DNA from: Catenulispora acidiphila DSM 44928
GTDB lineage: Bacteria; Actinomycetota; Actinomycetes; Streptomycetales; Catenulisporaceae
Reading direction: 5' to 3'
DNA length: 64,000 nucleotides
NCBI RefSeq assembly: GCF_000024025.1
Contig: NC_013131.1
Span: 3,348,001-3,412,000 of the forward strand
Shown: positions 37,549-43,865 of the stretch, piece after piece
Layout of the letters: each line of letters starts with the position of its first letter
Position numbering within the stretch: position 1 is the stretch's first letter
Translations under genes and position numbers: made by a program
Notes under the pieces: generated by a model
What the model saw: only the letters and a program-made list of their open reading frames with translations
The model's database searches: none
What the model was told of the DNA's origin: nothing

Positions 37549-38463
37549 TTACTTGTTCAGGCCCACCGACGCCAGCCACGCCTTGGCGACGTCCGACTCG
37601 TCCTTCTTCTGGGTGACGACCTGCTCCAGCAGGGAGGTCAGCGTGGTCGTGTCCAGCTTCGCCGACACCGCGTTCAGCGCGTCGATGCCGGCCGGGGACA
37701 GCTTGCCCTTGTCCACCAGCGGGATCACGTTCTGCACGCCGAACAGGCCCTTGTCGTCGTCGAGCACCACGAAGCCGTTGGTCTTGATCGCCGTGGTGGT
37801 GCTGTACAGGTCGACGACGTCGGCGTCGCCGTGCTGCAGCGCCGAGACGGTCTGCGGGCCGGAGTTGTCCAGCGCCTTGAAGTCCTTGAAGGTCAGCCCG
37901 TACTGGCTCTGCAGGCCCAGGACGCCCTGCTGGCGCGTCTTGAACTCCGGCGCCGAGCCCAGGACCAGGTCCTTGGCGTAGGGCGCGAGGTCGGAGATCT
38001 TCTTCAGGTTGTCCTTGGTCGCCAGCGCCTGGGTGACCACGAGCGAGTCGTTGTCCTGGGCGGCGGCCGGGTTCAGGATCTGCAGGTTGCTCGGCAGCTT
38101 GGCGGTCACCGCGGAGTCCACACCGGACTGGGTGCTCTCGGTCGAGGACTTGTCCAGGTAGGCCAGCAGGGCGCCGTTGTACTCCGGGACCACCGTGATC
38201 GCGTTCGACTTCAACTGCTGGAACAACACGTCGCGCTGTCCCACGTTGGGTTTGCGCTCCACCGAGATGCCCTTGTCCTCCAGTGCCTGCGCGTAGATCT
38301 CCATCAGGAGCACGTTCTCCGGGAACGCGGCCGAGGCCACGACGACCTTGGAGCCGCTCTTGGAGCTCGACGAGCACGCGCTCAGCGCGCCGGTCGCCGC
38401 CAGTGCGACCGCCAGTGCGGCGCCGACGACCCGAGTATTGGACCCTGTGGTGCGAATACGCAT
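37549..38463 (-). CDS. Glycine betaine/choline-type ABC substrate-binding lipoprotein
   Basis: The 304-residue protein has a signal peptide with lipobox LSAC and the OpuAC-like fold: VVASAAFPENVLLMEIYAQA, VVPEYNGALLAYLD and YSTTTAIKTNGFVVLDD. It binds quaternary amines outside the cell for uptake. GGAGGGGATTT precedes the ATG. It is closely similar to the binding protein at 40269-41177 but stands apart from the permease genes, so it probably feeds the same transporter. Confidence 0.88.
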   Translation of the reverse strand: MRIRTTGSNTRVVGAALAVALAATGALSACSSSSKSGSKVVVASAAFPENVLLMEIYAQALEDKGISVERKPNVGQRDVLFQQLKSNAITVVPEYNGALLAYLDKSSTESTQSGVDSAVTAKLPSNLQILNPAAAQDNDSLVVTQALATKDNLKKISDLAPYAKDLVLGSAPEFKTRQQGVLGLQSQYGLTFKDFKALDNSGPQTVSALQHGDADVVDLYSTTTAIKTNGFVVLDDDKGLFGVQNVIPLVDKGKLSPAGIDALNAVSAKLDTTTLTSLLEQVVTQKKDESDVAKAWLASVGLNK

Positions 38464-38710
38464 GTTAAATCCCCTCCGAACCGATAGACATGTCGAACCT
38501 AGCAACCCACGCTGACAACGGCAGCCTTCCCGAATCGCGGTTTCGAGACCTTTTCGAGACCGTTGACGGCTGCGACCGGCCCGGTCCGGGTCAACACGCT
38601 GCGGGGGCGTGCGGGGCACTGCGGGGCTGTGCCGCGCACTGTGGCGCACTGTGGCACCCGATCCGGCCATCCGCGTCACGCAGCGTGGCCGGCCGGACGG
38701 CGCACGGTTC

Positions 38711-39106
38711 TCACGGCAGCGCCGGCCGCCCGCCCGCCTCCGTCGGCAGACCCGCCTCGGCCCAGGCCCGGAAGCCGCCGACGAGGTCGGTGGCGTGCAC
38801 CAGCCCGAGCAGTTGCAGATCGCGCGCGGCCAGGCTGGAGGCGTAGCCCTCGTTGCAGAACACGATGACCTGCGAGTCGGCGGTGACGCCGGGCAGGCGC
38901 CACTCGTTGTCCGGCGCCAGCCGCCACTCCAGGTGGATGCGCTCGACCGGCAGCGCTCCCGGTATCTCGCCCTCGGCCTCCCGGTTGGCGTGCGGCCGGA
39001 TGTCGATCAGCAGCGCGCCCTCCCGGCGCAGCCTGTCAGCCTCCTGCGGGCTCACGCGCCGCAGCCCGGAGCGGGCCTCCTCCAGGAACGTGTCCACGGC
39101 ACTCAA
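38711..39106 (-). CDS. Rhodanese-domain protein
   Basis: The 131-residue protein starts at TTG 39106, with GGAGG seven bases before it and a TTGA overlap with the cysteine dioxygenase stop; GTG 39097 is the alternative. It has one rhodanese domain: LLIDIRPHANREAEGEIPGA, then IVFCNEGYASSLAARDLQLL with the catalytic Cys in the CNEGYAS loop, and VGGFRAWAEAGLP. It transfers sulfane sulfur. Pairing with cysteine dioxygenase points to cysteine-sulfur turnover. Confidence 0.88.
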   Translation of the reverse strand: MSAVDTFLEEARSGLRRVSPQEADRLRREGALLIDIRPHANREAEGEIPGALPVERIHLEWRLAPDNEWRLPGVTADSQVIVFCNEGYASSLAARDLQLLGLVHATDLVGGFRAWAEAGLPTEAGGRPALP

Positions 39107-39600
39107 ACCAGGTCCTCCAGGCTCTCGTACTCCCGGGTGGGAAGCAGCGGGGGCGAATAGGCGTGCACGGTCGCGGCGGGCCGGATACCCGTTTGCCGCA
39201 CGATATGCGCGCGATCCCCGCCGAATCCCAAAGCGTCGCCGACCTGAAGCCGGCGCACCCCGATCGGACCCCCGGGATACCGGTGCTCCTCCTGCACCTC
39301 GCCGCTCAGCACGGCGAAGGACCCGGCGGCGCCGCCGTGGTCGTGCGGCTTCGTCCCCTGCCCCGGCAGCCAGCTCAGCAGCCACACCTCGACGCCGCGC
39401 GTCAGGGCGAGCCGCGTCCACCACCGCTGCGGCTCGGTGTGCCGCACCAGCGGACGCAGCCGGTCGCCATGGACGTCGGCCAGCGCCCGGGTCAGATCCC
39501 TGAGCTGCGTCGGGGTCCACAAAGGACGGTCGGGGATGACGAGATCGTGCAGAAAGGCTTCGGCGACGTCGAGATCAGGCGTCTGCAAGGCCGAGGACAT
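39103..39600 (-). CDS. Cysteine dioxygenase-family protein
   Basis: The 165-residue cupin of the cysteine dioxygenase family has the iron-binding HDHGGAAGSFAVLSGEVQEE block (86-105) and the third His in VHAYSPPLLP (145-154). The family oxidises the Cys thiol to the sulfinate. The ATG at 39600 lies inside the short leader reading frame (39575-39721), and the ribosome site CGGAGCC is also inside it. The stop overlaps the rhodanese TTG. Confidence 0.88.
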   Translation of the reverse strand: MSSALQTPDLDVAEAFLHDLVIPDRPLWTPTQLRDLTRALADVHGDRLRPLVRHTEPQRWWTRLALTRGVEVWLLSWLPGQGTKPHDHGGAAGSFAVLSGEVQEEHRYPGGPIGVRRLQVGDALGFGGDRAHIVRQTGIRPAATVHAYSPPLLPTREYESLEDLV

Positions 39601-39721
39601 GATGGCGGCTCCGTGGTCCGAGATGTGGGTCGAGGTCGAGGAAGGCCTCGGTACACATGCAGGACGCCACGCGCAGCAAGTCGACCGGACGGTCGGACCA
39701 GGCGAGCAACGGAGCGGACAT
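39575..39721 (-). CDS. Putative Cys-responsive leader peptide (48 aa)
   Basis: A 48-codon frame begins with an ATG at 39721 and runs MSAPLLAWSDRPVDLLRVAS, then C-M-C at residues 21-23. The pattern VDLLRVAS followed by Cys codons matches short actinobacterial putative leader peptides found before sulfur genes. The frame overlaps the cysteine dioxygenase start by 26 nt in a different frame, so ribosome stalling at the Cys codons (TGC, TGT) could control that gene. No other function is likely for so short a peptide. The leader reading is inferred from pattern and position. Confidence 0.7.
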   Translation of the reverse strand: MSAPLLAWSDRPVDLLRVASCMCTEAFLDLDPHLGPRSRHHVLGLADA

Positions 39722-40268
39722 GCGGCGATGCTGGCACGGATGCCGGCGGCGCGGCGGAGGTGCTCGGATGGCGGACGGGGGTGTCTCAGGGGGTGTCGGG
39801 GGGTGGGATGGGGGGCGTCCGGGATGTGGATGGGGTGGCATTCTGTTAGGACCTTTTCGCCCCTTATATATATGTATAGCGCTAGCTGCCGACACCGGCG
39901 CCCCGCCACCGATACCACCGCCGACGACGCCGCCGCCGCGAACACTGCCGACACCACCGCCGACGCCGCGAACACTGCCGACACTGTTGGCGCTCGCCGA
40001 GCCGACTACTTAGCTGCCGCAACTCAGCCCAGCCTGCCCAGCCAGCCAGCCAGCCCAGACCGCCAGCCCAGCCAACCTGACCGCTCGCCGACACTGCTGG
40101 CGCTCGCCACCACCGATGCCGCCGCCACCAGCACTGCCGCCACTGTCACCGCTGCCGCCGCCGGGCACCGCCGATGTTGCCGCTGCCGCCGTCACTGCTG
40201 CTGCTGCTGCTGCTGCCGCCGCCGCCGCGCTGCCGCCGCCAACCGCGCCCGCCGAGCCAACCACCCGG
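39722..40268. other. Leader/promoter region and low-complexity gap
   Basis: There is no gene here. An A/T island (TTATATATATGTATAG at about 39864-39879) in very GC-rich DNA is a candidate promoter for the leader peptide-cdo transcript. From about 39880 to 40268 the DNA is low-complexity: GCCGCC, CAGCCAGCC runs and a repeated GACACTG(TT/CT)GGCGCTCGCC segment (about 39978 and 40091). Frames through it translate to poly-Ala/Pro or Ser and are not genes. Confidence 0.65.
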
Positions 40269-41177
40269 CTACCGCAGCCCGGCGCCCTTCAGCCAGTTGT
40301 CGGCGACCACGTCGATGTCGCGCTTCTGGTTCATGATCTGGGCCATCATGCCGACCAGGGCTGCGGTGTTCAGCTTGGCTGAGACCTCGTTCAGGGTGGC
40401 GGTGGCGGTGGGGGTCATGCTGGCGCGGTAGGCCAGGGGGGTCACGTTCTGGGCGGTGAAGACTTGTTGGGGGTCGGTCAGGACTTTGAAGTTGTGGGAG
40501 ACGATGTTGGGGTCGGTGGTGAACAGGGTCGCGACCTGGACTGAGTCGTCGGCGAGGGCTTTGACGGTGATGGGGCCGGCGGTGTCCAGGGAGGCGAAGC
40601 TCTTGAACGTCAGGCCGTATTTGTCCTTCAGGCCTGGGAGGCCCTGGTAGCGCTCTTTGAACTCTGGGGGTCCGCCGATGCTCAGGGCGGCTGCGTAGGG
40701 TGCCAGGTCGCCGATCGCGGTCAGGTGGTCCTTTGCGGCGGTTGCGGCGGTGACGACCAGGGCGTTCTTGTCCTCGGCGGGGGAGGGGTCCAGGATCTCC
40801 AGCTTTGCCGGCAGGGTTGCGCGGAGTTGGGCGTCGATCTCGGCGGTGGTGGCGGCGCGGGTCTTGGAGTCCAGATAGGCCAGCAGTGCGCCGTTGTACT
40901 CCGGCAGTACTGTCAGCGAGCCTTGCTGGACCTGCTGGTACAGCACTTCGCGGCTGCCGACGTTGAAGCGGATGCCGACCTTCACGCCCTTGGCTTTCAG
41001 CGCTGAGGCGTAGATGTCGGCGAGCAGGACGTTCTCCGGGAAGTTGGCCGAGCCGACCGTCACCTGGCCCTTCTTCGGGCCCGGTACCAGGGGGTTGCCG
41101 CTGGTGCAGGCGGTGGCGGCCAGTGCGGCCAGCGCGACGGCGGCCGTGGACAGCAGGGTGCGGGGGGACTTGCTCAT
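40269..41177 (-). CDS. Osmoprotectant-type ABC substrate-binding lipoprotein
   Basis: The 302-residue protein begins MSKSPRTLLSTAAVALAALA with a lipobox ending ATAC, then the OpuAC-like fold (VTVGSANFPENVLLADIYAS, VLPEYNGALLAYLD, DPNIVSHNFKVLTDPQQVF). It is encoded 56 bp after the permease genes of the same system and should deliver glycine betaine, choline or carnitine to it. Confidence 0.88.
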   Translation of the reverse strand: MSKSPRTLLSTAAVALAALAATACTSGNPLVPGPKKGQVTVGSANFPENVLLADIYASALKAKGVKVGIRFNVGSREVLYQQVQQGSLTVLPEYNGALLAYLDSKTRAATTAEIDAQLRATLPAKLEILDPSPAEDKNALVVTAATAAKDHLTAIGDLAPYAAALSIGGPPEFKERYQGLPGLKDKYGLTFKSFASLDTAGPITVKALADDSVQVATLFTTDPNIVSHNFKVLTDPQQVFTAQNVTPLAYRASMTPTATATLNEVSAKLNTAALVGMMAQIMNQKRDIDVVADNWLKGAGLR

Positions 41178-41233
41178 GGGGGTCGTCCTTCGTGTGGTGC
41201 TGAAGTCGGCGCCCCCCTGGCGGTCGCGTCGCG

Positions 41234-41911
41234 TTAAACGGTCTGTTTGTCCTGCCTCAGTCCTGGCGAGATCAGCAGTCTGCGCAGGATGGCGAAGAAC
41301 AGCAGGTTCAGGATCGCCGCCACCACGATCAGGATCGCGCCCCCGGCGACCATGCCGTAGTCGGTGGTCGCGAGGCCGTCGATGACGAAGCGGCCCAGGC
41401 CGCCGAAGGAGGAGTACGCCGCGATCGCCGTGTTCGCGACCGCGTTCACCGCCGCGAACTGGAAACCGGTGAGGATCAGCGGGAGGGCCGCCGGGACCTC
41501 TGCGCGCCACAGGACCTGCCACGGTCGCAGGCCCATGCCCTTGGCCGCGTCGGTGAGTTGCGGGTCCACGTTCCGCACGCCCTCGTAGGTGTTCAGCAGG
41601 ATCGGCGGTACGGTCAGCGCCACCAGGGGGATCATCACGGCGCGGAACTTCACGCCCATGACCACCACCAGCAGCACGACCAGGCCCAGGGTCGGCAGGG
41701 CGCGCGCCACGTTCGCCAGTGCGCTGACCACCAGTCCGCCGCGCTTGACGTGCCCGGTCAGCAGGCCGATCGGGAAGGCGATCAGGGCTCCGATGAGCAC
41801 CGCTTCGACCGAGTACTCGAAGTGCTGCAGGAACCGGGTCGGGATGCCGTCGGACCCGCTCCAGTTCGCCGACGTGGTCAGCCAGCCCCAGGCTTGGCTC
41901 AGGACGTTCAC
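41234..41911 (-). CDS. Osmoprotectant ABC transporter permease 2
   Basis: The 225-residue protein from GTG 41911 (GTGA overlap with permease 1) has five or six membrane helices and the coupling EAA-type loop DAAKGMGLRPWQVLWRAEVP (about 121-140). The sequence fits OpuCD/ProW-like permeases. It forms the membrane channel with the neighbouring permease. Confidence 0.9.
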   Translation of the reverse strand: MNVLSQAWGWLTTSANWSGSDGIPTRFLQHFEYSVEAVLIGALIAFPIGLLTGHVKRGGLVVSALANVARALPTLGLVVLLVVVMGVKFRAVMIPLVALTVPPILLNTYEGVRNVDPQLTDAAKGMGLRPWQVLWRAEVPAALPLILTGFQFAAVNAVANTAIAAYSSFGGLGRFVIDGLATTDYGMVAGGAILIVVAAILNLLFFAILRRLLISPGLRQDKQTV

Positions 41912-42558
41912 GCCGACCTCCGCTTGTTCCACGGCGTGAGCAGCCGCTGGATGATCACCAGGATCAGGTCGCAGGCCAGGGCCAGGGCGACGATCACCAC
42001 GATGCCGGTCACCGCCAGGTCCGAGCGGCTCAGCTGCGCCGCCGCGGTGAACAGGGCGCCGAACGCCCCGACGCCGATGACCGTGCCGACGCTGACCATG
42101 CTGATGTTGCCGACCGTGGCGATCCGCAGCCCGGCCATGATCGGCGGCACCGCCAGCGGCAGGTCCACCGCGACCAGGCGGCGCGTGCCGGTGTAGCCCA
42201 TGGCCACCGCGGCCAGCCGGACGTCCTCGGGGATGCCGCGGATGCCCTCGACGATGTTCGGGACCAGCGCCGCCAGGCTGTAGAACGACAGCGGGATGAT
42301 GACCGTGGTCTGCGTGAGTCCGGTGGAGGGGACCAGCAGCACGAACAGCGCGATGGACGGCAGGGAGTAGATGACGGTCAGCAGCCCGACCACCGCCGGG
42401 TAGATCTTCGGGTAGCGCACGCACAGCAGCGCCACCGGGATCGCCATGATCAGCCCGAACAGCACCGACAGCAGCGCCATCGTGAGCTGCTGCTGGATCA
42501 GCGAACCGTATGTGCCCAGATAACTGGGGATGTGGGGGAACAAGCCCGCGGACCTCAT
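41908..42558 (-). CDS. Osmoprotectant ABC transporter permease 1
   Basis: The 216-residue OpuCB-like permease has IPSYLGTYGSLIQQQLTMAL at the N-terminus, five or six helices and the coupling loop VRLAAVAMGYTGTRRLVAVD. The start overlaps the ATPase stop by one base. With the second permease it forms a heterodimer. Confidence 0.9.
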   Translation of the reverse strand: MRSAGLFPHIPSYLGTYGSLIQQQLTMALLSVLFGLIMAIPVALLCVRYPKIYPAVVGLLTVIYSLPSIALFVLLVPSTGLTQTTVIIPLSFYSLAALVPNIVEGIRGIPEDVRLAAVAMGYTGTRRLVAVDLPLAVPPIMAGLRIATVGNISMVSVGTVIGVGAFGALFTAAAQLSRSDLAVTGIVVIVALALACDLILVIIQRLLTPWNKRRSA

Positions 42559-43865
42559 CAGCTGGTCTCCGGGTTGCTGTCCTCGCCGGTCTCCGGACGG
42601 TCCGCCTGGTCGGCCACCGGCAGGTCGACCTGACCGGTAGCCGGGTTGCCGAACTGCCCAGGGCTCGTACTGCCCGCCTCGTCGACGCCGGCGCCGGCGT
42701 CAGCGGCTCCGCCCTCGCCGATCTCCGGGTTCCCGTGGATCGTCGCCTGAGCGCTGCCGTCCTGCGCCGCCCTGATCGCCGGGACCAGTTCCTCCACGGA
42801 CGCCACGCCGATGACCCGGCCGTCGTCGCCCACGCCGACCGCGCGGCTGGAAGGGGACAGGATCGCCGAGTCCAGGGCCGCGCGCAGCGAGTCGGTCTCG
42901 GCGTCGAAGGTGTGCCCGTAGGAGGTCAGGTCGCCGACCGGCACGCTGCCCAGGTCGCCGTCGCCGGGCACCTGGTCCGCAGGCAGCCAGCCCAGCGGTC
43001 GGTGCGCCTCGTCCACGACCAGCAGCCAGGGCTGCGATCCCTTGCGCGCGAGCACCTCGGCGGGCGGCGCGCTCCGGGCGACCACCGGCTCGGGCCGCAG
43101 CGGGACGCCGGAGGAGGAGAAGAACGACAGCCGCCGCACGCCGCGGTCCAGCCCGAGGAAGCTCTCGACGAACGCGTTCTTCGGATGGGCCAGCAGCTCG
43201 GTCGGGGTGTCGAACTGCTCCAGCAAACCGCCGGTGTTCAGCACCGCGACCTTGTCGCCGAGCTGGATCGCCTCGTCGATGTCGTGGGTGACGAACAAGA
43301 TGGTCTTGCTCAGCTCCGACTGCAGGCGCAGCAGCTCGGTCTGCAGGTCCTTGCGCACCACGGGGTCCACGGCGCTGAAGGGCTCGTCCATGAGCAGCAC
43401 CGGCGGATCGGCGGCCAGCGCGCGGGCGACGCCGACGCGCTGCTGTTGGCCGCCGGAGAGCTGGAAGGGGTAGCGCTTGGCGTGGGACTCCTCGAGCCCG
43501 ACGGTCGTCAGCAGCTCCATGGCCCGCTCGCGCGCCTTCTCCCGGGACCAGCCCAGCAGGCGCGGCACGGTCATCACGTTCGCCAAAACCGTCCGGTGCG
43601 GGAACAGGCCGGCGTTCTGGATCACGTAGCCGATCCCGCGCCGCAGCTCCGGCGCCGACTTGGACCGCACGTCGACCCCGTCGATGAGGATTTCGCCGCT
43701 GGTGGGGTCGATCATCCGGTTGACCATCCGCAGCAGGGTGGTCTTGCCCGACCCCGACGGTCCGACCAGCACGGTGATGCGGCCGCTCTCGGCGGTCAGG
43801 TCGGTCGCGGCGACCGCCACGGTCCCGTCCGGGTAGGTCTTTCCGACCTGCACGAAGGAAATCAC
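42558..43865 (-). CDS. Osmoprotectant ABC transporter ATPase with CBS domains
   Basis: The 435-residue ATPase has Walker A GPSGSGKTT (35-43), the LSGGQQQRVGVARAL signature, LLMDEPFSAVDP Walker B and HDIDEAIQLGD. A C-terminal CBS-like region (about 245-370) is typical of OpuA/OpuC ATPases that sense ionic strength. The last 60 residues are acidic and Gly/Ser/Thr-rich. It heads the ATPase-permease-permease-binding-protein operon. Confidence 0.93.
   Translation of the reverse strand: MISFVQVGKTYPDGTVAVAATDLTAESGRITVLVGPSGSGKTTLLRMVNRMIDPTSGEILIDGVDVRSKSAPELRRGIGYVIQNAGLFPHRTVLANVMTVPRLLGWSREKARERAMELLTTVGLEESHAKRYPFQLSGGQQQRVGVARALAADPPVLLMDEPFSAVDPVVRKDLQTELLRLQSELSKTILFVTHDIDEAIQLGDKVAVLNTGGLLEQFDTPTELLAHPKNAFVESFLGLDRGVRRLSFFSSSGVPLRPEPVVARSAPPAEVLARKGSQPWLLVVDEAHRPLGWLPADQVPGDGDLGSVPVGDLTSYGHTFDAETDSLRAALDSAILSPSSRAVGVGDDGRVIGVASVEELVPAIRAAQDGSAQATIHGNPEIGEGGAADAGAGVDEAGSTSPGQFGNPATGQVDLPVADQADRPETGEDSNPETS

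Follow-up and report, generated by a model that had tools for sequence, protein, structure and literature searches.

The Leader Frame and Its Target

Upstream of the cysteine dioxygenase–rhodanese gene pair (cdo–rhodanese) of Catenulispora acidiphila DSM 44928 lies a short frame with cysteine codons, which raises the question of whether cysteine supply controls cysteine breakdown and, if so, with which sign. The window analyzed is a 64,000-nucleotide stretch of contig NC_013131.1 (positions 3,348,001 to 3,412,000). A first-pass annotation had placed a Cys-codon frame before the pair, and it is indeed found there, on the minus strand (Table 1), reading MSAPLLAWSDRPVDLLRVASCMCTEAFLDLDPHLGPRSRHHVLGLADA up to its stop codon. 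The frame covers both the cdo start codon and the cdo Shine–Dalgarno sequence (GGAG, 39612–39609), and the two Cys codons of its motif are not contiguous but arranged as Cys-Met-Cys. As judged from sequence comparison, it is a conserved leader and most likely a cysteine-codon attenuator of cdo–rhodanese.

The cdo product belongs to the CDO_I family, with HDH 86–88, H132, H146, and Y148 conserved (an HDH…H metal site and an SxHxY-type triad). Its structural model has a mean pLDDT of 91; the closest fold is ergothioneine dioxygenase 8qfo (Z 19.4, 30% identity), and the comparison with cysteine-bound Bacillus subtilis CDO 4qm9 gives Z 18.8. At what is taken, from the rat CDO sequence, to be the position of rat Arg60, the contact to the cysteine carboxylate, Catenulispora cdo proteins carry Arg (WTR or WLR; WTR in C. 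acidiphila), whereas ergothioneine dioxygenase and its actinobacterial relatives carry Ser. Because this residue is Arg and not Ser, the sequence favors cysteine as the cdo substrate.

The pair is flanked on the minus strand by genes of the OpuC/EgtU kind (37549–38463 and 40269–43865), encoding two OpuAC-type substrate-binding proteins, two permeases, and one ATPase; the structures matched by each of the two binding proteins include those of the ergothioneine transporter EgtUC. An ergothioneine hypothesis, suggested by the nearest structures and by the transporter genes on either side of the pair in Catenulispora, was set aside: the enzyme in the window is Arg-type, and the transporter is not beside the pair at L134, the one locus of another family that was read more widely. 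Low-complexity runs of CCGCCG, CTG, and CCAGCC lie in the gap that separates the leader from the binding-protein gene (approximately 39900–40260), and this gap is much shorter in several relatives.

Table 1. Positions of the leader, its elements, and its target genes, numbered within the window.
Feature	Positions	Strand	Remarks
Leader ORF, 48 codons	39575..39721	-	ATG 39721–39719, stop TGA 39577–39575; 26 nt overlap with cdo
Leader core MSAPLLAWSDRPVDLLRVASCMC, 23 codons	39653..39721	-	Identical in 10 Catenulispora genomes
Cys23 codon TGT, motif-terminal, presumed sensor codon	39653..39655	-	TGT in every leader checked
Cys21 codon TGC	39659..39661	-	From sequence
Extended −10 promoter TGC-CAGCAT (predicted)	39728..39736	-	6 nt 5′ of ATG
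GCTCCG, codons 3–4	39710..39715	-	Complementary to cdo Shine–Dalgarno CGGAGC
CACATCTCGGACCACGGAGC, sole conserved tail block	39608..39627	-	Includes cdo Shine–Dalgarno
cdo, Arg-type cysteine dioxygenase, 165 aa	39103..39600	-	ATG 39600; PF05995, 39.2 bits vs cut-off 23
Rhodanese-like sulfurtransferase, second gene of the pair	38711..39097	-	PF00581, 49.1 bits; start GTG 39097 or TTG 39106

Conservation of the Leader in Catenulispora

The leader was compared in 10 genomes, i.e., C. acidiphila and nine further Catenulispora with a cdo orthologue and upstream DNA; Catenulispora rubra, C. pinistramenti, and C. pinisilvae are the named relatives among the cdo matches. The core (residues 1–23) is identical at 23 of 23 residues in all 10, and the six codons that vary do so synonymously (6 synonymous, 0 non-synonymous changes), while 58 of the 165 residues of the cdo protein vary in the same genomes. 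Among codons for invariant residues, synonymous variation is found at 6 of 20 in the core versus 79 of 101 in cdo (p 5e-5). Because the silent sites of the core are constrained in this way, the leader RNA, besides the peptide, seems to be under constraint. Alignment similarity is 0.97 in the core, 0.53 in the 60 nt upstream, and 0.62 in the first part of the tail.

The tail (the last 25 codons) differs in residues between Catenulispora species, and the frame always extends beyond the cdo start. In the other leaders of the C. acidiphila genome, only 3–9 codons follow the last motif Cys. No sign of selection on the tail peptide was found among the 10 genomes. The open tail was rejected as evidence for a selected peptide since stops are rare in such a C-rich stretch; in C. 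acidiphila, all three frames are open across the overlapping tail. The expectation that the frame would recur in relatives is strongly borne out by the core in 10 of 10 Catenulispora and by related leaders elsewhere, a conservation far beyond chance at the sequence level.

A promoter pattern, TGn-xAnnnT, ends 6–7 nt before the start codon in 10 of 10 Catenulispora leaders and in 20 of 21 leaders of a second family described below (f42), compared with 0–1% at shifted positions. The pattern predicts a leaderless mRNA whose 5′ end coincides with the start codon. Such a start would correspond to that of the leaderless short ORFs of mycobacteria.

The Leader Family

The cdo leader carries the motif [VI]D[LF]xRxxSxxC within a short frame that precedes a sulfur gene. 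Its best family match in NCBIfam is NF042934 (“putative leader peptide”, cis_reg_atten) over profile positions 7–19 of 19, scoring 22.0 bits with the 48 aa frame and 24.6 bits with the 23 aa core, below the curated cut-off of 27; the match to NF042933 (Ms5788A Cys-rich leader) reaches 18.2 bits, below the curated cut-off of 45. The earlier assignment to the putative leader peptide type holds with respect to motif, Cys codons, and conservation, while the score of 24.6 falls short of the family cut-off. The cdo leader departs from NF042934 in having WSDRP where ARRH is usual and in its 25-codon tail.

In the C. acidiphila genome, ten NF042934 matches exceed the cut-off and several narrowly miss it, and the genome carries approximately 14 such leaders besides that of cdo. 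Most of these precede genes of sulfur uptake and assimilation. By inspection of the downstream frames, the targets were read as FMN monooxygenases, rhodanese, a TauD-like dioxygenase, cysK, an SsuA-like protein, and cysH, as well as amino-acid and dipeptide ABC genes. One leader, L007, before an FMN-monooxygenase-like gene, has extra Cys residues in a repetitive tail (LGLCLCLGL).

Leaders before Other Actinobacterial cdo Genes

The upstream regions of approximately 100 actinobacterial cdo homologues were scanned. In f42 (judged to be Pseudonocardiaceae from one close match, record L134), 25 of approximately 30 cdo orthologues, with 53–68% identity, have a related leader, e.g., VTRSATLFTWCDRTIDLLLVASCGC or MFRSLICWRDRTVDLLLVASCGC, and scattered leaders also precede more distant cdo genes. 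Leader-type scores upstream of leader-bearing cdo genes are 10–27, mostly above 15, versus 4.3 or less for reverse-strand controls, with two exceptions where divergent leaders seem to lie. At L051 and L066, the strand opposite to cdo bears another such leader upstream of the gene, presumably for a gene read in the other direction. The long frame overlapping the target, 48 codons in the first-pass annotation, is a Catenulispora feature: overlap is found in 10 of 10 Catenulispora but in no other cdo leader, and those of f42 stop before cdo.

Rhodanese adjoins cdo in all leader-bearing loci tested. Of 89 loci, 75 have a rhodanese neighbor, and 44 of these carry the leader, compared with 0 of the 14 that lack one (p 3.7e-5, or 1.6e-4 leaving out Catenulispora, for loci that are not phylogenetically independent). 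Within one genus, leaders precede 3 of 3 Arg-type, rhodanese-linked cdo genes versus 0 of 12 ergothioneine-dioxygenase-like genes, and no leader was found upstream of the ergothioneine-dioxygenase-like genes of the sample. In a third family, many cdo–rhodanese pairs have no detectable leader. The association with Arg-type cdo–rhodanese pairs is evident at the sequence level, as are the conserved peptide, the UGU codon, and the promoter.

A frame without a regulatory role, conserved but simply translated or left over from an N-terminus, would account for the unconserved tail, yet it is very improbable in view of the absolute conservation of the peptide, the invariant TGT described below, the positioned promoter, and the recurrence before one gene pair across families.

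The Invariant TGT Codon

Cysteine has a single codon pair, and the Cys codon that ends the motif is TGT in 15 of 15 leaders of the C. acidiphila genome, 28 of 28 sampled class-wide, and 25 of 25 in f42. The remaining cdo leaders examined also end their motif with TGT, giving approximately 80 leaders checked in total (TGT leaders are catalogued as L002–L014, L016, and L017; L135–L163; and L164–L192). The rule holds regardless of the target gene across the actinobacterial sulfur-gene leaders checked, all from GC-rich genomes, in whose predicted genes TGT makes up 7–14% of Cys codons. The other Cys codons of the f42 leaders are 30 TGC and 3 TGT (3 of 33; p 2e-13). L015, the sole exception with TGC, lacks a start codon within range and probably does not represent a leader.

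The invariance of TGT is a feature of sequence pointing to codon-level cysteine sensing. Only the anticodon GCA was found for tRNA-Cys (one tRNA-Cys among the part of the tRNA genes that was typed), so isoacceptor-selective charging is unlikely to explain the choice of TGT. The conserved residues before TGT perhaps help to hold the ribosome at such a sensor, and an RNA-level reason for the U is conceivable. In theory, attenuators use the synonymous codon that gives the most sensitive reading (PMC1183508). The leu, his, and trp attenuators with their rare regulatory codons (Elf and Ehrenberg 2005, PMC1183508) likewise have one fixed synonymous codon; they differ from the cdo leader, which has no visible terminator and, with Cys, only one codon pair to draw on.

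In a purely peptide-based alternative, the nascent VDLxRVASxxC chain would itself arrest the ribosome, perhaps on sensing a sulfur metabolite such as free cysteine, much as TnaC responds to tryptophan. The residues before the Cys are conserved over many families and targets, while a codon sensor needs Cys codons only, and in many leaders there is just one Cys codon; both observations suit nascent-chain arrest. However, arrest of this kind has no need of an invariant synonymous TGT and is considered improbable. TnaC is the leader peptide before tryptophanase, the catabolic enzyme of the amino acid that is sensed. The cdo leader likewise precedes a catabolic enzyme, but it differs in showing codon-level constraint and no evidence for the sensing of a free ligand.

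Predicted RNA Structure and a Possible Read-Out

No terminator-like site was found in 38600–40300, and Rfam gives no match at the leader–cdo locus. In Catenulispora, the leader frame covers the cdo ribosome site and therefore leaves no intergenic room for a terminator, so control is probably translational there. In predicted folds, leader codons 3–4 (GCUCC) pair with the Shine–Dalgarno sequence GGAGC in 8 of 10 Catenulispora species. Sequestration of the ribosome site by this pairing was rejected as a demonstrated read-out: in most species, neither the minimum free energy nor the pairing of the ribosome site goes beyond that of synonymous shuffles. Blocking the UGU region during folding produced no consistent change, and RNA folding, as modeled, does not decide the sign of control, for which the first-pass annotation had proposed that higher cysteine would raise expression.

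A different structure is predicted in f42, where a 12 nt segment starting five bases after the Cys codon pairs with a segment usually 30–53 nt before the cdo start. Between 10 and 12 of the 12 pairs are formed in 19 of 19 sequences, and nine pairs are altered on both sides, a count of compensatory changes matched by 0 of 500 shuffles; because complementarity guided the choice of the 3′ register, this comparison is partly biased, and own arms outdo swapped ones only at p 0.019. The stem excludes the Shine–Dalgarno sequence, and no alternative partner stands out in f42; a competing duplex between the 3′ arm and the Shine–Dalgarno sequence was rejected as not above shuffles. RNAalifold returned almost no structure from the plain f42 alignment because loop lengths vary, whereas anchoring on the Cys codon recovered the stem. 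In Catenulispora, and in most leaders elsewhere, no stem of this type was seen. A local hairpin after UGU was rejected as not beyond shuffles. The stretch after the Cys codon is C-rich (C 0.36–0.51, G 0.18–0.32), a composition that could suit Rho.

Proposed Direction of Control

It is inferred that the leader is translated and that pausing on it sets the read-out and direction of control, such that cysteine supply probably gates cysteine breakdown. Ribosomes would start at the 5′-terminal AUG, read the VDLLRVASCMC segment, and reach UGU, where progress would depend on charged tRNA-Cys, as suggested by the conservation of both codon and motif. The outcome at UGU would then decide the expression of cdo–rhodanese. 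In Catenulispora, ribosomes that pass UGU would run on through the start region of cdo and open it, and those stopped at UGU would not. A cis-acting leader of this kind on a leaderless transcript, with the ribosome's fate at UGU setting expression and starvation tending to turn it off, is held to be fairly probable.

Given a working leader, two points tip the sign slightly toward cdo being turned off in cysteine starvation: the targeted enzyme breaks cysteine down, and the cdo leaders show read-outs of their own (the overlap and the stem) that other sulfur-gene leaders lack. An Arg-type enzyme that burns cysteine would be an odd product to express during cysteine starvation. In a broader, tentative proposal, a two-part sensor formed by the nascent peptide VDLxRVASxxC and the invariant UGU would serve the leaders class-wide, with an inverted read-out at cdo–rhodanese that turns breakdown off when cysteine is short.

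The polycysteine leaderless short ORFs of mycobacteria (Canestrari et al. 2020, cited in PMC9031893 and PMC13236596) have in common with the cdo leader a short Cys-codon frame before a sulfur gene and the VDLxRVA..C motif, and for the cdo leader a leaderless start is predicted as well; L135 and L137, polycysteine leaders taken as mycobacterial, end their motif with the same TGT. They differ from the cdo leader, which has two non-contiguous Cys, overlaps the start of its target, and precedes a gene of cysteine oxidation, not acquisition. In PMC9031893 and PMC13236596, the mycobacterial frames are reported to attenuate in dependence on cysteine supply, and the block is described as relieved when ribosomes stall in starvation, opposite to the sign favored here for cdo.

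The mycobacterial precedent bears on the possibility that the same sensor acts with the opposite sign, as a canonical translational attenuator through which starvation switches on cdo–rhodanese for sulfur scavenging. With ample cysteine, leader RNA would pair with the cdo Shine–Dalgarno sequence and ribosomes would overrun the cdo start, while under starvation the cdo ribosome site would be kept open by a ribosome waiting at UGU. This sign would fit attenuation by cysteine supply in mycobacteria (PMC9031893 and PMC13236596), the sulfur-acquisition targets of the other C. acidiphila leaders, the predicted pairing of codons 3–4, the constrained silent sites, and the ergothioneine dioxygenases as the closest solved structures. 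It is nevertheless held to be the less likely sign: cdo keeps the Arg60 equivalent while the Ser-type genes have no leader, so that cysteine would be burnt in starvation, and the predicted structure is no better than that of synonymous shuffles.

If the leader works as proposed, cysteine-codon attenuation would extend from sulfur acquisition to cysteine breakdown, with one sensor serving two opposite needs. The general use of TGT perhaps lends itself best to testing: a UGU to UGC change offers a single-base handle on tRNA charging versus the nascent peptide versus both in leaders that are common in actinobacteria.

At two further loci, L037 and L038, a leader containing CLCC precedes a dioxygenase without the Arg60 equivalent. 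The sequence that follows UGU in L037 (CCCCGTCCG) can pair with the stretch before the start codon (CGGACGGG), to which it is complementary.
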